From NCBI RefSeq assembly GCF_000016165.1, contig NC_009253.1:3235484-3299483 (forward strand): a DNA stretch of 64,000 bases, in the 5' to 3' direction. This document shows positions 16,329-29,482 of the stretch, piece after piece (within the stretch, counting starts at the first letter, position 1; every line of letters starts with the position of its first letter). This DNA is from Desulforamulus reducens MI-1. Lineage in GTDB: Bacteria > Bacillota > Desulfotomaculia > Desulfotomaculales > Desulfotomaculaceae. The position numbers and the translations under genes were made by a program. The notes under the pieces were generated by a model. The model was not told the origin of the DNA, searched no databases, and was given only the letters and a program-made list of their open reading frames with translations.

Positions 16329-17741
16329 TTAATATCTTTTTCTCCTGGTTGTGGCAGGGATACCTAATTCATCGCGGTATTTTGTAACTGTCCTACGAGA
16401 TATCTTAACCCCTCGTTTAGCAAACAATTCAGCAATCTTTTGATCACTGAGGGGACTGGAAGTATCCTCTTGTTGAATAATCTCCTGCAAAATCTTTTTT
16501 AGACTCTCCGCAGATACCTGGGAGCCACTGGCATCATCAAGTCCCGAGGAAAAGAAATACCTCATTTCAAAGACACCCTGGGGGGTTTGTATGTACTTAT
16601 TAGAGGTGGCCCGACTAACGGTGGACTCGTGAACGCCAACAATCTCGGCAACTTTTTTCAGGTTTAGGGGCTTCAAAAATTTTACCCCGTAATCCAGAAA
16701 GTCATGTTGCAATTCCACCAGGCAATTGGCCACTTTGTACAACGTTAACCGACGCTGTTCAATGCTGCGTATTAACCAGGCCGCTGCATTTAGCTTTTCC
16801 TCCACAAACTGTTTCGTATTCTGATCGGCAGAACTATTTTTCGCTAAAACCCTGCGGTAGGTATTGTTAATGGAAAGACGTGGAATAGCCACATCATTAA
16901 CCAAAATAACATACTTTCCCTCTACCTTTTCCACCACCACATCCGGGGTGATATAGCGCAAGTCATCGTTTTGGCTGAAATTTCTACCGGGCTTTGGTTC
17001 CAGCTTTTTAATAATATCGGCTGCCCGTTGAATTTCCTGGGGAGATACATTTAATTTGGCGGCAATCTTAGCCACTTTTCCTGTGGCCAGATCTGGTAAA
17101 TATTGATCGATCAATGCATTTACCAGGGGATCATCAATTTTTAAAAACTCCAACTGAATTCTTAGGCATTCTTTTAAATCCCTGGCCCCTACACCGTGGG
17201 GGTCAAAACCTTGCAAAATCCGCAGGGCCCTTTCCAACTGATCCAACCCCACTGCCAGCTGTTGCCCTGCTTCTTCCAGACCAATACCCAGATAACCCCT
17301 GGGGTCAATATTACCAATGAAATATTGAACAATTCTTTTTAAATCTTCATCGGCCCGGCTGAGGCTCAGTTGAAAGGTTAGGTGTTCGATTAGGGTGGGT
17401 GTATGGGTCACAAACTGCTCAAAACTAGGTTGTTCAGTAGTCTCCCTCTGATTTCTGCCCGGGGAAAACCCCAGGTCGCTGCGGTCTTGAAAATACTCTT
17501 CCCAGTCCATGTCAAATTCTTTCTTATCTATTTTCTCTGAATGGGCTTCTCGGGTGGTATTTGGGTCCTCCTGACGCTCCTGGTCGTACTCCTTAACTTC
17601 CAACATAGGGTTTTCCAACACCTGTTGTTCTACGTATTCCACCAACTCCAGGGAAGATAACTGCAATACCGTGATGGCCTGACGAAGCTCAGGTGTCATA
17701 ATAAGTTTTTGGGTCTGCTCTAAATTAAGTCCGAAGTCCAT
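16329..17741 (-). CDS. rpoN: RNA polymerase sigma-54 factor
   Basis: Sigma-54 (470 residues) directs RNA polymerase to -24/-12 promoters that need an AAA+ activator. The N-terminal Gln/Leu-rich activator-interacting region (LNLEQTQKLIMTPELRQAI), the core-binding region, the helix-turn-helix around VGVHESTVSRATSNK and the RpoN box (RRTVTKYRDELGIP) near the C-terminus are present. GGAG lies 7 bases before the ATG at 17741, so I prefer it over the in-frame TTG two codons upstream. Confidence 0.96.
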   Translation of the reverse strand: MDFGLNLEQTQKLIMTPELRQAITVLQLSSLELVEYVEQQVLENPMLEVKEYDQERQEDPNTTREAHSEKIDKKEFDMDWEEYFQDRSDLGFSPGRNQRETTEQPSFEQFVTHTPTLIEHLTFQLSLSRADEDLKRIVQYFIGNIDPRGYLGIGLEEAGQQLAVGLDQLERALRILQGFDPHGVGARDLKECLRIQLEFLKIDDPLVNALIDQYLPDLATGKVAKIAAKLNVSPQEIQRAADIIKKLEPKPGRNFSQNDDLRYITPDVVVEKVEGKYVILVNDVAIPRLSINNTYRRVLAKNSSADQNTKQFVEEKLNAAAWLIRSIEQRRLTLYKVANCLVELQHDFLDYGVKFLKPLNLKKVAEIVGVHESTVSRATSNKYIQTPQGVFEMRYFFSSGLDDASGSQVSAESLKKILQEIIQQEDTSSPLSDQKIAELFAKRGVKISRRTVTKYRDELGIPATTRRKRY

Positions 17742-17788
17742 TCGCAAGCTCCATCACCCCCGTTGTTTAAACCAAATTTCGAAAAATA

Positions 17789-20025: not shown

Positions 20026-21135
20026 TTGCAAAAAAATTTTGAACAAATTCAAAAGATTATTATTGCCTCGGCTTTATCCCTGGGACTTCTGGTATCAATG
20101 GGGGGTATTGGCTACAAGTATTTATTTGCCAAGGAGCAAACCTTTACTCAATCAGGAAAAGCAGTTCAGGTAACTCAGCCTGCTTCATTCCAACCAGAAA
20201 CAATATACAGTAAATTTCAATTAAAACAGCCGGTCAATGTGCTGGTCCTAGGTGATCAGGGGATACTCTCCGGGGATTATCTCAATAAAGAAATAAACAA
20301 GGTAGAAGAAACATTTAAGAGCCAAGTAAAACTTACTACACTAACCAATAACAGTGGCACCCCCTGGAGCACCCTCATGATCTTCAATAAATTCCAGGCC
20401 AGCCAGTCTGAACAACCGGATCTTATTTTGCTTTATCCCGGCACAGAAAACCAGCAGGAGGTTAAGGAATCACCGTCCGAGGGTCTTTACGAGGCAATCC
20501 TACAAACCGCCGGCAAAGCCTTACCAAAAGCAGAAATTATCATGCTGCAAGGGACCAATCTCCAGCCGGCAATAAAGCAAATTCAAACGGCACTGGCAAA
20601 GCACTACAACCTGCCCCTATGGGAACCTGATTCTAGCAAATCAACGCTGCTAGAGCTTTTAAAACAGCGGTCAACCGCAGAATTTACCGGAAATAAGATT
20701 ACAGCGGTAAATCCAGTGGCAGACATTGACCAGTACCTATCCTGGCAGCAAATTCAAAAACCTTCATCAGCCTATTTAATGGATAAGCCCAATGTAAAAG
20801 AGAACTTACCAGTATTAGTTGGTTCACAGAGCGGCGCCTATGTGGAAAGTAACTTTACAGGAAAGGCCGTTGGGGTACTGGTGAAGTGTGTACCGGACGG
20901 CGGTATGGCCAGGATCTATGTGGATAATACAAAATATAACATCATTGACACCTACTCACCGGAGCCTTGCATGAAATATTTTCTGGTGGCAGATAACCTC
21001 CCACCGGGTGAGCACCGGGTAAGACTCATTGTCCTTGGCCAGAGCAAATACCCTTCCAACGGCAAACGCATCATTTGGTATGGATTTGATGCCACCGGAA
21101 GCAAAGATTCAGCTAATAAAAAACCCGGGGAATAA
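20026..21135 (+). CDS. membrane-anchored SGNH/GDSL-like protein
   Basis: A 369-residue exported protein. One hydrophobic segment near residues 10-30 serves as signal or anchor. From about residue 68 the pattern VNVLVLGDQG, then PDLILLYPGTEN and a later helix-strand order resemble the SGNH-hydrolase fold used for acyl-chain or carbohydrate-ester chemistry. The catalytic Ser position appears as Asp-Gln (GDQG), so it may be inactive or a distant relative. TTG start with GGGAGAG upstream. It stands alone on the plus strand, with its own promoter and terminator, facing the riboswitch operon. Confidence 0.6.
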   Translation: MQKNFEQIQKIIIASALSLGLLVSMGGIGYKYLFAKEQTFTQSGKAVQVTQPASFQPETIYSKFQLKQPVNVLVLGDQGILSGDYLNKEINKVEETFKSQVKLTTLTNNSGTPWSTLMIFNKFQASQSEQPDLILLYPGTENQQEVKESPSEGLYEAILQTAGKALPKAEIIMLQGTNLQPAIKQIQTALAKHYNLPLWEPDSSKSTLLELLKQRSTAEFTGNKITAVNPVADIDQYLSWQQIQKPSSAYLMDKPNVKENLPVLVGSQSGAYVESNFTGKAVGVLVKCVPDGGMARIYVDNTKYNIIDTYSPEPCMKYFLVADNLPPGEHRVRLIVLGQSKYPSNGKRIIWYGFDATGSKDSANKKPGE

Positions 21136-21149
21136 CCCCGGTTTTTTTA
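21121..21149 (+). terminator. terminator overlapping the stop of the SGNH-like gene
   Basis: AAACCCGGGG and CCCCGGTTT pair (one bulged C) and are followed by TTTTTAT. The stem includes the stop codon region. Confidence 0.85.
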
Positions 21150-21151
21150 TG

Positions 21152-21409
21152 CTAAAACATGCTTTTGCATTTTTGGGCAATGGTAATTTGTGCCTCAAGC
21201 CTTTCGATAACCTTATCTAATTCCTGGTTATCTAGATTTTCGATTTTGCGTGAACCTGCGGCCATTTTTAAAAAGTGCTCAGCCTCGGAGGGCTGATACC
21301 CCTCGCCAACTATTTTTTGTTTTAACTCTTCTATCTTCTGTAATCTAGTACGTTGCTCACCTTTGTCGGATACTAATGTGCCTTTAAGGGCCTTTTGATA
21401 ATAAGTCAT
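21152..21409 (-). CDS. 85-residue orphan controlled by a c-di-GMP riboswitch
   Basis: A soluble, charged, mostly helical small protein (MTYYQKALKGTLVSDKGEQR, KIEELKQKIVGEGYQPSEAE, LDKVIERLEAQITIAQKC). GGGAGG lies 8 bases before the ATG. It is the first gene after a cyclic-di-GMP-I aptamer (21528-21452). No family is certain; the KIEELKQKIVxGxY stretch is loosely like the C-terminal helices of the anti-sigma factor FlgM, which would suit a motility-to-sessile switch, but the match is too short to rely on. Confidence 0.7.
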   Translation of the reverse strand: MTYYQKALKGTLVSDKGEQRTRLQKIEELKQKIVGEGYQPSEAEHFLKMAAGSRKIENLDNQELDKVIERLEAQITIAQKCKSMF

Positions 21410-21451
21410 TCCTTAAACCTCCCGAAAGCCCCGACTATTAAAATTTTTTCT

Positions 21452-21528
21452 CGGCAACCCGGCTACCCTAGCTACACCTTAGGCCCGTGGTTTTGCGCCC
21501 CACCCTTTCGGAGGGTTTGCCTTTGTCG
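21452..21528 (-). promoter_or_regulatory. cyclic di-GMP-I (GEMM-I) riboswitch aptamer
   Basis: Minus-strand RNA from 21528 reads CCGACAAAGGCAAACC, a stem capped by GAAA, then GGGGCGCAAAACCACGGGCC, UAAGGUGUAGCUAGGGUAGC and CGGGUUGCCG. The AGGCAAACC block, tetraloop, CGCAAAxCCACGGGCC tract and GGUxGCCG closing helix are the GEMM-I consensus. It precedes the 85-residue gene by about 43 bases; an A/U-rich segment and a TCGG that could pair with CCGA lie between, so the switch could act on the ribosome site. ON or OFF cannot be assigned by eye. Confidence 0.9.
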
Positions 21529-21535
21529 GAACATA

Positions 21536-21561
21536 AATATTATTCGACAATATTATTCGAC
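21536..21561. repeat. 13-bp tandem direct repeat upstream of the riboswitch
   Basis: AATATTATTCGAC occurs twice head to tail just before the aptamer on the minus-strand transcript. It overlaps where the promoter is expected and could bind a regulator. Confidence 0.5.
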
Positions 21562-21680
21562 AACCTTATACAGTATCCTCTTTATTTTGATAATTGTCAT
21601 AAATATTTCATTTTTTACTAATGATATCCAATAGTTTCTTAGGTTAGTAATGAACTCCCCCTAGGGGGGCCTTAATGTTC

Positions 21681-22304
21681 TTATATCTTACTGAGCAATT
21701 GCTTTCTTCGTTCTTTCTTTTGCTGCTGATAGGCCTCTCTGGCCTGCTCCGTAAAATCACTTTGATAACCATATTCCAACAGTTCATTCTCTGCAAAGGC
21801 AATGGCTGCATAGACCCTGGCATCACACTGGGCCTCCAGACCCTTGGCTAAACCTATATATTTTTCTGCCAGATCGCTTTTGGAACCTTTTTTTTGCCCG
21901 GAAGTAATTTGGCGATACTCCTGCTTGGCAGAGGCTATTAAACCACCTAACTTACCATTATACTCACCTTGTAAGGCAGTCAGCTTGCCCTTTAGCCTGT
22001 TTTCAATGTCCGCCTGTGAGGGGGCATTTTTATTAATCTCAGTGATCCCCTTTGTGGGGCCTTCTGCCTGCGTAGAATCGTTTCCCGCAACCCCTTGCTG
22101 TTTTAATTCTGCTTCCTGTTTTTTTAGAGCAATGACTTCGGGTAAATCATTGTATTCTTCATTGTTAATAAGCTCTGTCTTTTGTTCCTGCAGGTTTTTT
22201 TCATCTAAATCCGATTGACCATTTAGTACCTGTTTATCAAAGTAAAAATATCCAGAGCCTAGAATAAGACCTACTATAATAAAAACAATCCATAATTTTT
22301 TAAT
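21681..22304 (-). CDS. membrane-anchored coiled-coil protein with an apparent ATT start
   Basis: A 207-residue frame that ordinary start rules miss. From ATT at 22304 it reads (M)KKLWIVFIIVGLILGSGYF, a signal-anchor helix, then a charged largely helical exported part (DEKNLQEQKTELINNEEYND ... ending QKKERRKQLLSKI). A very strong ribosome site GGAGGGGAGG stands 7 bases before that ATT. No ATG, GTG or TTG occurs in frame near it, and an in-frame start further down would remove the membrane helix. The gene lies just after the CpsB-type phosphatase on the same strand. Function unknown. Confidence 0.7.
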   Translation of the reverse strand: MKKLWIVFIIVGLILGSGYFYFDKQVLNGQSDLDEKNLQEQKTELINNEEYNDLPEVIALKKQEAELKQQGVAGNDSTQAEGPTKGITEINKNAPSQADIENRLKGKLTALQGEYNGKLGGLIASAKQEYRQITSGQKKGSKSDLAEKYIGLAKGLEAQCDARVYAAIAFAENELLEYGYQSDFTEQAREAYQQQKKERRKQLLSKI

Positions 22305-22330: not shown

Positions 22331-23143
22331 TTATTTTCTAAAGAAGGATTGTAGCCCGTACCAAAGGCCTTTCTTTTTTCTTTTTTCGCCTCTGGTTAGT
22401 TGATAAGGTAGAACTTCGCCCTTGCCAATGGCTTCTCCCTTTGTCACTTTTTCAGGATTGCCCAGGACCAGTTGTAGTGCTCTTTCTCGGCCCACTAATT
22501 CTTCCACCACAAGACGGGCTTCCCTTAATAGAAAGGGTCGCTTGATGGGATCATGGGCATCCGAGGCAATAAAATCCACCCACCCCAGACGAACAAAATC
22601 CTGGGTCAACTGCTGTATTTTTGAGCCAAAACGACCAGTCAGACTACCAGCAGTAACCTGCACAAGGCACCCCTTTTCCTGTAACTGATATAGGACCTGA
22701 GGACTTTCTATTATTTCCCTGTTTCGTTCCGGATGGGCGAGGATCGGCTTAATTCCCTTCAGCATAATTTCAAAGATTACCTGCCCTGAGTAGGCCGGCA
22801 CATGATTCATGGGAAATTCCAACAACACATACTTCCCTGTATCATTCAGTGTCAGGGCACTGCCTTGGGCCAACCTCTGGGCTGCATCCAGGGTCAGATG
22901 CACCTCCATACCGGGTAATATCTTTAGTGGTAGGCCTGCCCCATCTAGTAATTTTTGTAACTCCGCCACTGCTGACAGAATAGCTTGTCTCTCAGTAAAA
23001 TAGACCTCTGGGATACAGTGGGGCGTGGCAATAATCGTCGTAATTCCTTCCTGTACAGCCTTTGCAGCCATTTCTAAGCTTATAGCTTGGTCTTTGGCAC
23101 CATCGTCGATGTTGGGTAAGATATGGCAATGTAAATCGATCAA
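22331..23143 (-). CDS. PHP-domain tyrosine-protein phosphatase (CpsB/YwqE type)
   Basis: A 270-residue Mn-dependent phosphatase that removes phosphate from the Tyr-rich tail of polysaccharide co-polymerase kinases. PHP metal motifs are clear: MIDLHCHILPNIDDGA, ATPHCIPEVY, LPGMEVHL, LAHPERNR and ASDAHD. GGAGG lies before a TTG start. Its substrate is probably the kinase at 27734-28462, 4.6 kb away; the SLH-protein genes lie between. Confidence 0.92.
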   Translation of the reverse strand: MIDLHCHILPNIDDGAKDQAISLEMAAKAVQEGITTIIATPHCIPEVYFTERQAILSAVAELQKLLDGAGLPLKILPGMEVHLTLDAAQRLAQGSALTLNDTGKYVLLEFPMNHVPAYSGQVIFEIMLKGIKPILAHPERNREIIESPQVLYQLQEKGCLVQVTAGSLTGRFGSKIQQLTQDFVRLGWVDFIASDAHDPIKRPFLLREARLVVEELVGRERALQLVLGNPEKVTKGEAIGKGEVLPYQLTRGEKRKKKGLWYGLQSFFRK

Positions 23144-23234: not shown

Positions 23235-26015
23235 TTAATTTAGTGGCATAAAGGTCTTACTTAGGTTGACCATGAAGTCTAAAGTTTCTATGAGGCTGTC
23301 ATAGGCACTATCGTTCCTGCTCTCTAACTCTTTCTTTGCCAACATTATTACAGTGGCATCTACTTCAACATCTCCGGGCTGTGAGTTTTCATCTTTCTCA
23401 AAGACAATTCCTTTAAGAATTCCACTTAAGGCAGAATCCTGAGAGTGATATGTTTTTAGGCGATCAAAGGTTAATTTAGCCACTGTTTTTAACTCTGGGT
23501 GTTGGCGATCACGCAATACGTATAGTGCAGCATTGTAAAGGTCTTTTTCATAGTTATCGGCAGTAACCTTGCAATCGCCCTGCAAGATGCAGGTATATAA
23601 ATCTATGCCATATTTATATACAACCTCTTGATTAATGTTATATTGCCGAAGCTTAGTAACAACTTCACTAAACTCCGTTTTCAGCTTCTCAATCTCTCCG
23701 CTGATCAACTGAACACTATCGCCTACATTATCCCGTCCCAGGTGAGCCAACCCGCGGATGGTTGCTAAGGCAAAGCGTGCTTCTTCAATGGTAATATTCG
23801 TGTTGGTTATATTTTCGAAGCCAGACTTTCTTAAGGCTTCAAAAATCTCTTCTTCTGTTAGGTTATTAACCAGTTGATCCCTTTGTGCCTTCAGGTTATT
23901 CCATTCGTCTTGGGTAAGACTATTAAGGCCCGTTTGAATAGCAGTTAGTAATGCTTCCAGAGTTGGTTCTGCCGGCACAAGATTGACGCCTTTTACCGTT
24001 ACAGTAAAGGTTTTTATTACGGTTGCTTTCCCTTTCTTAATGGTAGCAGTTAATATAACTGTTTTATCTCCACCCACTCTGGGCCGTTTTACAGTACCGT
24101 CATTGGTGATTACATCGGTATTACTTGAGGCCCATGTTATAGTGACATTGGGATCAGCATTTACCGTTGGTAAAGTAACATTCTGTGTCACATTTGTCAC
24201 AGTGTCGCCATTGGCAAAAGTTATATTTAAGTTAGCTTTAACATTTCGTACAGTATCCAAGTCGGCAGCTATTTCATTTAGAGCGGGAGGAAGGGTTGCA
24301 TCATCTGCCACTACCACATTGGAAATTCCTGAAACATTGCCTGCCAGGTTTGCCAAGGTTGTTCCTGACCCCAAATTTAGTGTCAAACCCTGCACTCCCT
24401 GAGCCACAGTTACAGTTCCGTTAAAAGTTCCTCTAAGTTCAATTTGCTGACCAGCAGCAGCTGCTTCTACGGCAACATCACCAAAGGAACCTCCCTGAGC
24501 TGCTTCCAGAATAACTTTAGACTCTACCTTGGTAACGGTAATCGACGAATCCTCTGTGACAATACGAACACTATTAGCTTGATTACCGGTGTTAACAGTT
24601 AATTTTTGCTTAACTTTTACTTTCTTAAATTTTATTGAATTAGATGCCCCAGAACTTACTGTTACGTTGTCAACATCTATGTTCTGGATGGTAACTTCGC
24701 CACTTGCCCCAGGGTTGATGGTTAAGGAACCCACGATGGTTGATGTTCCGCTAGCAGGACCATAGGTACCGCTGGTAGTGATCGTATAATTACCAGTATG
24801 GGTACCAGGTTGATTAATTACATCAATAGCAGGAGTGCTTGATCCACCGCCACCACCACCGCCGCCGCTACTACTTTTAACGGCAAAGTGGGCTTTTAGA
24901 GTAGCAAGCTGTTGCTTTCCTGCCGCAGCAACTTTTAGTCCTTCAATTACAACATCCGGTGCCTTGTCCTTTTCATCAGGGTTGTAGGCCCTTACGGTAT
25001 AATCACGATTGGCCAGCACAGCTACCTTAAACTTACCATCCTTATCTGTGGTGGTAACAAAGGTAGGGTTGGTGGTAAATGCAATGGTGGCATTTTTAAC
25101 TGTTCTTTTATCTTTGTCCTCCAGGTCACCGCTCAATATGGCTGCCTTTTCCAAGGTCAAAGCCTGTGAGGTTAACTGGTTATCCGCTACCTTGACATCA
25201 CTTTTGTAGCCTACTTCACTGTCAGTAGAAGCAGTGAGGTCATACTTGCCCTTGGGTAGGTTGAATTTATAATTACCGTTGCTATCTGTCTTGGCTTCTT
25301 CCATTACCTTGAAGCTATCAGCCTGAAATACTCTCACAACAGCATTGGCTATGGCTTTGCCATTCAGAGTAACTTTACCCTCAATACCACTCTGAACGGT
25401 TACCTCTTTTCCATTGGCCTTTAAAGCCCGATCCAAAGATACAACTGCTTCAGCTCGGGTAATGCTCTTCAGCGGACGGAAGGTGTTATCCGGGAATCCA
25501 TGCATCAAACCGCTATTAACCACTGCACCTATGCCACCCTGGGCCCAGGCTTGTATTTGGGAAGCATCTGCAAAGGCATCAATACCTGCTGTGGTTGTTT
25601 GAAGCTTTAACAATCTAGTCAGGATATTAGCAGCCTCTTGCCGGGATATGGCCTGATTGGGCCGGAAGGTACCATCACTGTACCCACCAATATAACCGGC
25701 AGCTTTGGCAACGGCTACCTCGCCATAATACCATTGACCTTCTTTAACATCTGTAAAACTATTTGCTGCACCACCATTGTTTAGTGCAAAGGCCCGGTTT
25801 ACCAGAGCAACAAATTCTGCCCTGGAAACTTCATTGTTGGGCTTAAAGGTACCGTCTGCGTATCCCCCAGCAAGCCCCTTGGCGGACCATTCATTAATTT
25901 GCCCCTCTGCCCAATGGCCTTGTAAATCTGTAAATGTGGCAGCAAAGGCTACTGTGGTTAAGGATAAAACTAAACACAGACTAAGCAATATTGCTAGATA
26001 CTTTCTTTCTTTCAC
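23235..26015 (-). CDS. large S-layer-anchored protein with N-terminal SLH domains
   Basis: A 926-residue secreted protein. Signal peptide at residues 1-26 (cleavage after AFA). Three SLH domains follow (about 27-70, 88-140, 146-195; e.g. GLAGGYADGTFKPNNEVSRA), which bind pyruvylated wall polymer. Next come two carboxypeptidase-regulatory-like beta domains (about 205-375), a Ser/Gly linker SSSGGGGGGGGSS, a beta-rich region with repeated Val/Thr strands (about 395-580), a bacterial Ig-like domain (about 595-680, WASSNTDVITNDGTV) and a helical C-terminal domain. GAGGAGG precedes a GTG start. Likely a surface structural or adhesive protein; no catalytic motif is seen. Confidence 0.92.
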   Translation of the reverse strand: MKERKYLAILLSLCLVLSLTTVAFAATFTDLQGHWAEGQINEWSAKGLAGGYADGTFKPNNEVSRAEFVALVNRAFALNNGGAANSFTDVKEGQWYYGEVAVAKAAGYIGGYSDGTFRPNQAISRQEAANILTRLLKLQTTTAGIDAFADASQIQAWAQGGIGAVVNSGLMHGFPDNTFRPLKSITRAEAVVSLDRALKANGKEVTVQSGIEGKVTLNGKAIANAVVRVFQADSFKVMEEAKTDSNGNYKFNLPKGKYDLTASTDSEVGYKSDVKVADNQLTSQALTLEKAAILSGDLEDKDKRTVKNATIAFTTNPTFVTTTDKDGKFKVAVLANRDYTVRAYNPDEKDKAPDVVIEGLKVAAAGKQQLATLKAHFAVKSSSGGGGGGGGSSTPAIDVINQPGTHTGNYTITTSGTYGPASGTSTIVGSLTINPGASGEVTIQNIDVDNVTVSSGASNSIKFKKVKVKQKLTVNTGNQANSVRIVTEDSSITVTKVESKVILEAAQGGSFGDVAVEAAAAGQQIELRGTFNGTVTVAQGVQGLTLNLGSGTTLANLAGNVSGISNVVVADDATLPPALNEIAADLDTVRNVKANLNITFANGDTVTNVTQNVTLPTVNADPNVTITWASSNTDVITNDGTVKRPRVGGDKTVILTATIKKGKATVIKTFTVTVKGVNLVPAEPTLEALLTAIQTGLNSLTQDEWNNLKAQRDQLVNNLTEEEIFEALRKSGFENITNTNITIEEARFALATIRGLAHLGRDNVGDSVQLISGEIEKLKTEFSEVVTKLRQYNINQEVVYKYGIDLYTCILQGDCKVTADNYEKDLYNAALYVLRDRQHPELKTVAKLTFDRLKTYHSQDSALSGILKGIVFEKDENSQPGDVEVDATVIMLAKKELESRNDSAYDSLIETLDFMVNLSKTFMPLN

Positions 26016-26135: not shown

Positions 26136-27710
26136 CTATTTTTTAGTTAGTAAAAAATTCTTCAACATTACCACAGCCTCTGCCCTGGTGGTGTTATCCG
26201 TTGGTCCAAAACATAAGCCCTTTTGCCCGGGTTTCCCTTTGATAATTTGGGCAGCATAGGCAGCCGCAGCCGATGGCTTGGCCCAATCTGCTACTTGGGC
26301 TTGATCCGCAAAGGCAGCTAATACCGCTGTGTCGGCTTGTACCGCCATTCCTTTATAACTCATGGCATTTACAAGCATAGCCGCCATCTCTTGCCGGGTA
26401 ATGGGCGCTCCGGGAGCAAAGGTATCCGCACCCTTCCCCTTAGCCAGCCCAGCCTTGCAAGCCAATGCTACACTGGGGTAGTACCAAGCCCCTTTATTTA
26501 CATCCTTAAAGACAACCTCCCCTTGACCTTGTAACCCCAATACGTTGACCAGCATAGTGGCAAATTCCGCCCTGGTAACTAGGTCCTGGGGATGGAACTT
26601 GTCCGCCTCTACACCATTGACATAGCCCTGGGATGCCATGTATAGAATATCGCTGGCAGCCCAATGCCCTTCGATGTCTTTGAATTCCTTTAAAACAGGT
26701 GCAGCAGGTTTTGCTTGGGGTATTGTTTCCGTGGCAGTTACTTGCTCTAATAAAGCATATTGACTGAAATGCTTTGTGTCAAAGTTCATTACATTGGCAC
26801 TACTATTAAACACCCCACCAACCAAATCCCAATTCTTCGTTTTTTCATTATAGGTATAAACCTTTAGTGTCCCAGTGGATGCACTGTTTCTATATTCCGA
26901 GGGTACAGGGAGAGAAACAGTAATAGAACCACTAAATGAAGAAAGGGCTTCAGTATTACTTGATTTATCAACTGCTTCGGATGTTATGTTGTAAATGTAA
27001 CCTGCAACTTTATATACCCCACCATTTTTGGCGCCCGACATAAGATTATTCATTTCTGAACTAGCCAGTTGCTTGACACGGACCTTAAACTCAGCCTTTT
27101 CTTCTCCCATTACTGAGCCAATATTCAGTGCCTCTGTGGAGAAGGCTAACTTAACATCACCAAACCTCATCTCCAATGACTTTCTGGCATCTTTCACTTC
27201 TTTTATTTGCAGTCCGTTCAGATAAATATAGGCTTTACTATTAGAATCAACAATTGCCCGGGAACCTGAAGTCTGAATTTTAAATTCTTCTGAGCCTACT
27301 GCTCCCCCGCCAGCAACACCGGGAACCGCCGGGTCCTTAAGCAGTTCATTTCTCAGGGTATTGCCTAACTCTTTAACAGCATTCTTAGCATCTGCATATT
27401 CCGATGCCGGTAAGGATACTACAGCCTCTTTGAGGGCCTCGTTTGTAAGAAACTTTCCTGTCACAACCTCTTTTATATGGCTATCGTCATTTAACTTGTC
27501 TTTGTCAATGCTGTTTACCACATCCCGTACAAAATCTTCTACAACTTTTGAGTCAACATTCAACTGGTCAACTACTTTTGAGTAACTGGGATCCTTTGTA
27601 ATATTGCTTATAGCATCATCCACTGATCCTGCATTTGCCATGGGGGCAATTAAAAACTGACAGGATAATGCCAGGGACAGGGTAACTGCACATGCTTTTT
27701 TTCTTAGCAT
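26136..27710 (-). CDS. S-layer protein with C-terminal SLH domains
   Basis: A 524-residue secreted protein. Signal peptide at 1-27 (PMANAG). An N-terminal helical part and a beta-rich middle (about 140-330) are followed by three SLH domains (about 342-390, 398-450, 458-524; FKDIEGHWAASDILYMASQG, GAPITRQEMAAMLV). The SLH block is C-terminal here and N-terminal in the neighbouring SLH protein. AAGGAG precedes the ATG. The middle region has the general shape of surface proteins with Tyr/Leu 'HFSQYALLE' endings. It is downstream of the CapA/CapB pair on the same strand. Confidence 0.9.
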   Translation of the reverse strand: MLRKKACAVTLSLALSCQFLIAPMANAGSVDDAISNITKDPSYSKVVDQLNVDSKVVEDFVRDVVNSIDKDKLNDDSHIKEVVTGKFLTNEALKEAVVSLPASEYADAKNAVKELGNTLRNELLKDPAVPGVAGGGAVGSEEFKIQTSGSRAIVDSNSKAYIYLNGLQIKEVKDARKSLEMRFGDVKLAFSTEALNIGSVMGEEKAEFKVRVKQLASSEMNNLMSGAKNGGVYKVAGYIYNITSEAVDKSSNTEALSSFSGSITVSLPVPSEYRNSASTGTLKVYTYNEKTKNWDLVGGVFNSSANVMNFDTKHFSQYALLEQVTATETIPQAKPAAPVLKEFKDIEGHWAASDILYMASQGYVNGVEADKFHPQDLVTRAEFATMLVNVLGLQGQGEVVFKDVNKGAWYYPSVALACKAGLAKGKGADTFAPGAPITRQEMAAMLVNAMSYKGMAVQADTAVLAAFADQAQVADWAKPSAAAAYAAQIIKGKPGQKGLCFGPTDNTTRAEAVVMLKNFLLTKK

Positions 27711-27733: not shown

Positions 27734-28462
27734 TTATAAACAAGCTGCCTTATGGCCTCTTTTTTTTCCTTTCTTTTTATCACCGCTGCCTTCACCATAG
27801 TAATAATAATAGTAGTAATCCTGACTGTCCTCTTCCACCATATTTAAGATGGTTCCCAGGATCTTCGCTTTACCATTTAAAAGCATTTGCTTTGCCTTCT
27901 GGGCTGTTTCAATTTTGGCCTGTCCCGATGCAACAACCAAAACAACCCCATCCGCCTGGGGTGCCAGCAAAGCCGCATCGGTAACAGCAATAATGGGCGG
28001 GGAATCAATGATAATAATATCTGCATGTTCACGGAAGGATGTCAGTAAAGCAGTCATTCTTTGGGACCCGAGCAATTCGGCTGGGTTAGGAGGAATGGGC
28101 CCGGTGGTTACGATATGTAAATTCTTCATGGGGGAAGGTTGTAAGGCTGTGGCTATCTCAGTGTCCCCCAGCAGTATGTTGGTAAGGCCAATAATATTAT
28201 CAATTTCCCATACCTTATGCTGGGTTGGCTTGCGTAAATCAGCATCAACAATAATGACGCTTTTACCAGATTGGGCAAAGGCAATGCCTAGATTCGCAGC
28301 AGTGGTGGATTTCCCTTCGGCTGGACCGGAACTGGTTATTAATAATGTTTTAAGCTCTTTATCAACAGCTGCAAATTGAATATTGGTTCGGGCTATGCGA
28401 TAGGCCTCTGCTACCGGTGATTTAGGGTTCTCCAAAACCACGAGTCTGTTATTTAACATCAT
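27734..28462 (-). CDS. bacterial tyrosine kinase (CapB/CpsD/YwqD type)
   Basis: A BY-kinase that drives and is regulated by exopolysaccharide export. Walker A GPAEGKSTTAANL, Walker A' IIVDADLRKPTQH and Walker B IIIDSPPIIAVTDA are in order. The C-terminal tail holds seven consecutive Tyr (QDYYYYYYYGEG), the autophosphorylation cluster, then a Lys-rich end. A longer frame starts at TTG 28480, but AAGGAG lies just before ATG-ATG at 28462/28459. It works with the CapA activator encoded immediately upstream and should be dephosphorylated by the PHP phosphatase at 22331-23143. Confidence 0.94.
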   Translation of the reverse strand: MMLNNRLVVLENPKSPVAEAYRIARTNIQFAAVDKELKTLLITSSGPAEGKSTTAANLGIAFAQSGKSVIIVDADLRKPTQHKVWEIDNIIGLTNILLGDTEIATALQPSPMKNLHIVTTGPIPPNPAELLGSQRMTALLTSFREHADIIIIDSPPIIAVTDAALLAPQADGVVLVVASGQAKIETAQKAKQMLLNGKAKILGTILNMVEEDSQDYYYYYYYGEGSGDKKKGKKRGHKAACL

Positions 28463-28472
28463 TCTGCTCCTT

Positions 28473-29177
28473 TTATTCAATCTTAGGAATAACCCCCAGC
28501 ACGGGAAGCTCTAAGTAACGTTCCACGTCATCTCCGGTCTTAATGGTTCGATCCAGGAACTCCAGTAAAAAGACAATCCCTAAGGCAACCATCAAGCCAA
28601 CGACTCCAGCAATGATGATGTTCAACTTTTTATTTGGCTTCACCGGTAAAGTGGGTACCACTGCGTGATCTATAATGTTAACGTTATCAACCTTCATGAT
28701 TTCTGTAACTTTACGAATAAAAACAACTGCGGTAAAATTGGCCAGCCTCGCTGCCCGCTCCGGGTCGATATCTTCCACCGTTATTTGGATTAATTGCGTA
28801 TCCTTTACCGGTTTAACATCGATACTCTGACTTAATTGCTCATAGGTCGTATTTATTTTTTCAGACTGCATTACCTTCTCCACCACTGTACGGCTCTTGG
28901 CAATTTGGCTATAGGTCTTAACTAGTTGGTTAGCCGTTAAAATATCATTATATTGCAACATCATGGCGTCTTGACCGGAATAGGTTTTGCCCACCATTAA
29001 AGTGGTAGATGCCTCATAGCGGGGGGTAAGTACAAAAAAACTGATAATTCCACTGGTCAGCATGGCAATTAAGGGGAGACTTATTAAAATCCATTTACCC
29101 TTTTTGATAATGCGCCAGATATCTCTTAGATCGATCACCTCAAAGTCATCTCTCGACTCTATTTTGTCGTCATTCAA
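28473..29177 (-). CDS. Wzz/CapA-type chain-length regulator and kinase activator
   Basis: A polysaccharide co-polymerase with two membrane helices: one after the N-terminal DLRDIWRIIKKGKWILISLP and one near the C-terminus (LNIIIAGVVGLMVALGIVFL), separated by an extracellular helical part. The cytoplasmic tail GVIPKIE activates the kinase. The frame is open to ATG 29201, but AAAGGAG lies 8 bases before a TTG at 29177, giving 234 residues starting at NDDKIESRDD. It is 10 bases from capB, so they form one unit. Confidence 0.92.
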   Translation of the reverse strand: MNDDKIESRDDFEVIDLRDIWRIIKKGKWILISLPLIAMLTSGIISFFVLTPRYEASTTLMVGKTYSGQDAMMLQYNDILTANQLVKTYSQIAKSRTVVEKVMQSEKINTTYEQLSQSIDVKPVKDTQLIQITVEDIDPERAARLANFTAVVFIRKVTEIMKVDNVNIIDHAVVPTLPVKPNKKLNIIIAGVVGLMVALGIVFLLEFLDRTIKTGDDVERYLELPVLGVIPKIE

Positions 29178-29482
29178 GTCAAAGTCTCCTTTACTATGCA
29201 TAATTATTTGAATAATACGACATTAAACATGCTATTCCTTCATAACGGAAATAATATTTTATCTTTATTTTTCAATTAAATATATCTGTATAAAGATTAC
29301 TATGTAACCACCAGGTACTTCGACTAATTACTTCGAAATACGACATTATATTTTCTCAAAGGCTGAAAAATCATAAAATAACAAAAAAATAAACCCTCCG
29401 TCGGTGTGTGACCTTGGAAGGTTCGGATCTCGCTTTACATGCCAGGGTACTACTTTAAACCTCTTGTTGTAACAGCAGCCAA
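29178..29482. other. intergenic region between galE and the capAB operon
   Basis: No coding sequence is evident. It is AT-rich, as expected for the capAB promoter. A 12-base direct repeat AATACGACATTA occurs at 29214-29225 and 29337-29348. The end near 29390-29480 is GC-richer and has a small ACCTTccAAGGT palindrome that may belong to the 3' end of galE transcription. No clear terminator is seen. Confidence 0.4.

Follow-up and report, generated by a model that had tools for sequence, protein, structure and literature searches.

The DNA analysed here, called the window throughout, is a stretch of 64,000 nucleotides from Desulforamulus reducens MI-1 (contig NC_009253.1, positions 3,235,484 to 3,299,483), and its features are collected in Table 1. 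A class I c-di-GMP riboswitch aptamer is followed on the same strand by an open reading frame of 85 codons, and the span 21152-21535 that an earlier note had marked from the letters alone covers both. Downstream of the small protein lie whiA, a gene for a metallo-beta-lactamase-fold protein and a sigma-54 gene. The same note had named S-layer proteins and a polysaccharide kinase and phosphatase as neighbours, and profile searches bear this out with SLH, CpsB/CapC, TIGR01007 BY-kinase and Wzz matches. Its description of the convergent gene product as SGNH-like is weakly supported, the relevant match being CE2_N (carbohydrate esterase 2 N-terminal) at E 1.4e-5, below the Pfam cut-off. The membrane-anchored-looking neighbour, named geneX here, has no ATG, GTG or TTG at the head of its frame. 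The proposed start is ATT AAA AAA behind GGGGAGG, and the relative in the congeneric genome G006 (locus L019; G and L denote genomes and loci) has the same ATT AAA AAA and no usual start upstream. An ATT start, if conserved, would be unusual. In L016 and L017 a homologue of geneX comes after the small protein; in L018 and L019 it comes before.

Table 1. Features of the window and further class I switches of the same genome.
Feature	Position	Strand	Evidence or remark
c-di-GMP-I (GEMM-I, Rfam GGC variant) riboswitch aptamer	21449..21530	-	RF03167 and RF01051 scores, invariant core
Expression platform (proposed): anti-P1 GTCGG, then Shine-Dalgarno GGGAGG	21410..21448	-	P1 pairing against shuffles
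85-residue three-helix protein, undescribed family (GYxPxEx...QxxxAxKC)	21152..21409	-	ORF, profiles, AlphaFold2
Terminator-like hairpin with T-run, shared with convergent gene	21125..21141	both	Pattern scan
geneX, membrane-anchored-looking ORF, recurrent neighbour	21681..22304	-	BLAST at other family loci
CpsB/CapC-type polysaccharide phosphatase	22331..23143	-	PF19567, E 1.1e-57
S-layer homology protein	23235..26015	-	SLH, E 1.3e-41
S-layer homology protein	26136..27710	-	SLH, E 6.3e-35
CpsD-type BY-kinase (polysaccharide tyrosine autokinase, tyrosine-rich tail)	27734..28480	-	TIGR01007, 216.5 bits (cut-off 108)
Wzz/CpsC chain-length determinant	28473..29201	-	PF02706, E 2e-17, over cut-off
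Convergent secreted-looking protein	20026-21135	+	CE2_N, sub-threshold
Sigma-54 gene	16329-17747	-	About 3.4 kb beyond small protein
tmRNA gene	6734-6385	-	201 bits
Five other class I switches of the genome	L001, L003, L004, L005, L006

The aptamer had been called a complete GEMM-I element, and a covariance-model scan (cmscan) confirms it. The site scores 71.3 bits with RF03167 (c-di-GMP-I-GGC; gathering score 59; E 6.6e-15), matching that model over its full length (1-80 of 80), and 75.1 bits with RF01051 (cut-off 35). It lies on the sense strand of the small ORF, 39 nucleotides from the ATG. The 12 aptamers found linked to the small-protein family, the window's included, share an invariant core. 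All 12 keep the J1/3 C and the G that precedes the P2 cytosine, and G11, C77 and A37 of the window aptamer show no variation among them. These three ligand-contacting positions, whose bases are those of c-di-GMP and not of cGAMP switches, we take, partly from the Vc2 numbering, to be G20, C92 and A47 of Vc2. The mapping of the conserved G and the J1/3 C to G20 and C92 draws in part on passages of two papers (PMC6274999; PMC9262584). Because the equivalents of G20 and C92 are kept, c-di-GMP is the expected ligand of the window switch, a binding predicted from these positions with the reservation that a G20A mutant can bind cGAMP (a passage of PMC7288161) and that G20 is described as a selectivity factor and not a hard filter (a passage of PMC9262584). 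The genome, a single contig of 3,608,104 bases, holds six class I switches at E <= 1e-3. The five others precede, by naming of the genes by eye, one PilB-like ATPase, three chemoreceptor-like proteins and one response-regulator-like protein. No class II switch was found in this genome in a search whose control genomes were also without a match and in which other genomes do match. Locus L004 also bears a purine riboswitch. A direct repeat (TTGTCGAATAATAT/TGTCGAATAATAT) lies just upstream of the window aptamer (21530-21570, reverse strand) and could pair with the P1 5' strand if transcribed.

The small protein had been read as the only gene directly behind the switch, and it is the only plausible one. 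Aptamer and ORF seem to form a separate unit because the terminator-like hairpin and the convergent gene come next, and the hairpin probably closes the transcription unit of the small protein. No promoter stood out near this unit, with three promoter-like sites against 2.6 expected. The ATG is preceded by GGGAGGTTTAAGGA, a good Shine-Dalgarno sequence. Just before the Shine-Dalgarno in the window and in L009, L010 and L011 lies a segment, termed anti-P1, that pairs with the 5' strand of P1. The window strand (TTCCGAC) pairs with AGTCGGGG at -13.4 kcal/mol, and in L010 GGGTTCCGATA pairs with TATTGGAACCC. Of 1000 dinucleotide shuffles, 10 equal pairing of this strength in the window, 33 in L009, 3 in L010 and 12 in L011, and the window pair CCGAC/GTCGG becomes CCGAT/ATCGG in L009, a compensatory change. 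The corresponding count is 37 of 1000 for L045, and the pairing is unremarkable in L012, L013, L032 and L034 (336, 100, 374 and 177 of 1000). The combined p over all nine leaders tested is 1e-5. An anti-Shine-Dalgarno segment, CTCC, is visible by eye downstream of the aptamer in L013, L032 and L034, and it also appears in the ensembles of L034 and L013; if the flanks are lengthened, the Shine-Dalgarno of L034 finds another partner in the best fold. The layout of anti-P1 and Shine-Dalgarno points to control by strand exchange at P1, which would act on translation. Openness of the window Shine-Dalgarno is 0.30 in the unconstrained fold and 0.57 with the aptamer helices enforced, a modelled rise that would lean weakly towards an ON switch. 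Shorter flanks, however, give 0.52 unconstrained and the sequestering pairing does not exceed shuffles, so the switch may be ON or OFF. An arm of the window's P2 complementary to the Shine-Dalgarno had looked switch-like and was rejected; 180 of 1000 shuffles reach the same strength.

The product of the ORF had been described as a helical orphan of no recognised family. AlphaFold2 predicts three helices (residues 15-35, 40-51 and 61-84 in the first model) with mean pLDDT of 79.6 from 14 alignment rows and 79.3 from 28, and neither Pfam nor NCBIfam yields an above-cut-off match for the window protein. GemA, RuvA_C and DUF5333 of Pfam score under the gathering cut-off both here and in the relatives that were scanned. 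Over 28 members of the family, the lowest E-values were 6.7e-4 in Pfam (RuvA_C) and 1.9e-3 in NCBIfam. As far as searched, the family is undescribed; the protein is not an orphan in the sense of lacking relatives. A single-sequence search gave homologues in 8/60 genomes, its own included. Such a search of GTDB contigs confirmed no relative, and profiles were therefore used. These place the family in 28/113 genomes of the window's class, its own included, of which 14 hold the close clade A. Two phylum-wide profile searches of 398 genomes found it in 19 and 23, the window's genome among them, and not all of the weakest matches are secure.

Foldseek found no PDB chain matching the model at E <= 0.001, and the best VIA-align score (Z 7.9, epsilon antitoxin) is within the chance range for helical bundles; both methods gave common helical-bundle likenesses only, none of them informative about the fold. 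A match to BurrH repeats from a mixed alignment (E 2.5e-10) was not recovered with either of the alignments A3 and A2 at E <= 0.1, no stretch passed alone, and we read it as an artefact of repeats matching a short helix-turn-helix. A phage or plasmid origin was rejected, with no tblastn match in phage or plasmid collections at E <= 1; PHROGs gave four weak matches, one member each.

Three groups make up the family, namely clade A (the window's type, 14 genes in the class), clade C and the shorter subfamily B. The count of 14 results from 31 profile matches less 16 of subfamily B and less L014 of G023, which is B-like and has no switch. G37, L71 and C81 are invariant in 28/28 rows of clades A and C, and L33, Y38 and A78 are nearly so. 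The short relatives of subfamily B (GYHPDEVEYALVEVLQYK) occur at 16 loci of the class (L035-L044, L046-L051). None of the 16 has a switch directly upstream, and L046 has one more than 1 kb off. A maximum-likelihood tree of 32 members, from which the broken gene of G410 was excluded, divides into two halves of 16 (support 99/97), with 7/29 inner branches starred. Among the 16 that include the window gene, 11 are preceded by class I and 5 by no switch. The remaining 16 comprise 6 preceded by class II, a single gene preceded by class I, which sits on a very long branch, and 9 preceded by none. In the protein tree the members with class II do not group as a single clade (AU p 5e-4), and no single origin of class II linkage is therefore claimed.

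The neighbourhood seen in the window recurs at other loci. In clade A, 13/14 genes lie within 9 kb of CpsB, CpsD, Wzz, SLH or CapD homologues, the exception being G055, where CpsD is about 18 kb away. These clusters comprise a CpsB phosphatase, Wzz and the CpsD BY-kinase, often in the order aptamer, small protein and directly a CapD-like gene, with SLH proteins near in several. Neighbour families were confirmed on representatives (CpsB_CapC, TIGR01007, Wzz, Polysacc_synt_2), and the rest are named by BLAST to these. CpsD at E <= 1e-35 is present in all 14 clade A genomes versus 52/113 overall (p 6e-6). Outside the class, polysaccharide or SLH neighbours were found by BLAST to the window's set at 9/19 genes and none of these reference genes at 10/19. 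This recurring neighbourhood, together with c-di-GMP control, points to a role in surface polysaccharide.

A c-di-GMP riboswitch lies upstream of 19/33 family genes checked, the window's included (class I 12, class II 7). In clade A of the window's class, a class I aptamer stands directly upstream of 10/14 genes (the window, L009-L013, L032, L034, L045 and L087), or 9/13 without the window gene. The other four (L008, L030, L031 and L033, in genomes G006, G066, G071 and G073) show no switch even at a relaxed threshold. With 86 class I switches in the 14 genomes, chance would give about 0.03 linked genes against the 10 seen; for class II outside the class it would give about 0.004 against 7, these expectations being only a guide, as the genomes are related and the counts not independent. 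The 19 family genes outside the class divide into 2 with class I (L092, L102), 7 with class II or its GAG variant (L094-L098, L100 and L104, the ORF of L104 being broken) and 10 with none. Left out of the 19 were the fragments L118 and L142, G455:C10, L105, L160 of G005 (weak, no switch), L106 (subfamily B) and doubtful matches in long frames of G201, G280, G314, G350 and G407.

The kinase offers a comparison. Thirty CpsD loci of the class (of 62 CpsD matches) were examined for 1.5 kb on each side with a model derived from the 12 family-linked aptamers, and it matched only at four CpsD loci with an adjoining small protein. A class I switch was found within 1.5 kb of 0/26 CpsD loci without an adjoining small protein, and the switch therefore tracks the small protein and not the kinase. 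When four further same-strand cases are added to the four matched loci, a small protein directly behind CpsD on the same strand goes with a switch in 5/8 versus 0/26 (Fisher 2e-4); counting the convergent case of G039, the figures are 6/9 versus 0/26 (Fisher 5e-5). The regulatory linkage of switch and small protein is well supported. The earlier suggestion of a new c-di-GMP output is upheld by the 19/33 genes behind switches of either class and by their ties to surface-polymer genes, and the small protein looks like a dedicated, uncharacterised output of this kind. In G051, a second class I aptamer (L045 1157-1073, reverse strand; also L186 645-729) lies behind the small protein and before the next polysaccharide gene.

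In 5/7 genomes with class II linkage, the switch before the family member is the sole class II switch found at E <= 1e-4, and those five genomes also hold 4-7 class I switches. The family-linked switch is 1 of 3 and 1 of 2 in the two remaining genomes, giving 7/10 for all seven together. That class II might be dedicated to the small protein phylum-wide was rejected; a family member stands behind 3 of the best-scoring 30 class II-GAG loci. Across the phylum other genes are mostly the users of class II switches, and exclusivity for the small protein applies within the five genomes only. Two further class II aptamers have no link to the small protein: L083 16516-16600 (forward strand), which precedes a 921-residue secreted-looking protein, and L155 1452-1535 (reverse strand).

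Taken together, these observations suggest, at a probability we put near 0.55, that a class I switch controls a one-gene unit whose three-helix product adjusts polysaccharide assembly through the Wzz/CpsD complex. The class I switch would govern an apparent one-gene unit that ends the exopolysaccharide/S-layer cluster. c-di-GMP would shift the partner of the P1 5' strand between the aptamer's own P1 and the anti-P1 before the ribosome-binding site, and the choice of partner would set translation of the small protein. Once made, the protein would modulate how the polysaccharide is assembled, its most likely contact being the Wzz/CpsD kinase complex of the neighbouring genes, a target proposed by analogy. 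A broader proposal, to which we give slightly less than even odds, is that the new family is a dedicated link from the c-di-GMP pool to the Wzz/BY-kinase machine in the phylum, and that selection installed two unrelated switch classes before it, class I predominating in one clade and class II in the other, with the family-linked switch the sole class II switch found in some genomes. To our knowledge, the route from c-di-GMP to exopolysaccharide assembly in bacteria with split CpsB/CpsC/CpsD phospho-control has been little described. The helices, the cysteine, the frequent place in the cluster and the c-di-GMP control make the small protein a concrete and testable candidate for such a route. 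Two unrelated switch classes before one family also form a natural experiment on what makes a class II sensor preferable to one of class I for a particular output.

The strongest competing explanation, though an unlikely one, is that the protein is a small helical DNA- or RNA-binding regulator of the polysaccharide genes and not a partner of the kinase complex. Its GYxx..I..II..G helix-turn-helix core has a sub-threshold likeness to RuvA_C (E 6.7e-4; 4/28 members at E <= 0.05), further sub-threshold likenesses are to RecX_HTH1 (1/28 members) and ribosomal S15, and the polysaccharide gene context would fit such a regulator equally well. However, the best family matches lie below the cut-off wherever a cut-off is shown, and the Foldseek search at E <= 0.001 returned no PDB chain.

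Somewhat less probable still is that the polysaccharide operon is the real target of the switch, with the small ORF as a mere leader or translation-coupling cistron before it. The order of genes favours this at several loci. The small ORF is succeeded on its own strand by geneX or a CapD-like gene in L016, L017, L081-L084, L086 and L087, the CapD-like gene of L016 being confirmed as Polysacc_synt_2, and the second class I switch of L045 sits between small ORF and polysaccharide gene. In the window itself, however, only the terminator-like hairpin and the convergent gene come after the small ORF. The protein sequence is conserved, with its three invariant residues across 28 rows, and 26/26 examined CpsD loci that lack the adjoining small protein also lack the switch.

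The earlier note had ventured that the protein could be an anti-sigma factor or adaptor with a weakly FlgM-like stretch, and we regard this as very improbable. Its size and helical content are suited to such a role, motility is commonly under c-di-GMP control, the genes behind the genome's other five class I switches look, by eye, like those of chemoreceptors, a type IV pilus ATPase and a response regulator, and the sigma-54 gene is not far off. Against it, Pfam yields no FlgM match, either for the window protein (E <= 1) or among 28 family members (E <= 0.05), and the recurring neighbours, among those assigned to families, are polysaccharide and S-layer genes. FlgM acts on sigma-28. A sigma-54 homologue recurs at only 1/14 other family loci blasted, that of the congener G006; this is therefore shared genus synteny and gives little support to the anti-sigma idea. 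Least probable of all is that riboswitch and an unimportant small ORF came together by chance or passive hitch-hiking, for although 4/14 clade A genes and 10/19 outside genes have no switch, members of one family are preceded by two unrelated switch classes, at counts far above the expectations of about 0.03 and 0.004.

Regulation of this kind is already known; new, as far as searched, are the target family and the two riboswitch classes before it. In the open literature on c-di-GMP riboswitches and BY-kinases, taken by titles and abstract openings among the matches listed and with most subscription papers outside this scope, there is no description of the small protein or of the pairing. The window switch resembles other c-di-GMP-I switches (RF01051/RF03167) in aptamer sequence and fold, in the ligand-contacting positions and in lying in the leader of a gene that belongs to a surface-related cluster. 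It differs from them in a target gene for which no described family was found and in a proposed platform with anti-P1 next to the ribosome-binding site. The c-di-GMP-II switches (RF01786/RF03169) share with it the small protein, standing before seven homologues. They belong to a separate Rfam clan (CL00126 and CL00127 for the two classes), none was found in the window's genome, and their RNA fold is unrelated to that of class I. FlgM is small and helical, as is the window protein, which differs in having no match to its profile. The closest parallel in way of working may be RmpD of Klebsiella, also a small protein, which binds Wzc and makes capsule chain length more even (PMC10294653). The abstract of that paper makes no mention of a riboswitch (PMC10294653), and the partner in the window is split into Wzz and CpsD. 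In both cases a small protein would act on the Wzc/BY-kinase polysaccharide machinery, and the likeness proposed here is one of working by analogy and not of homology.
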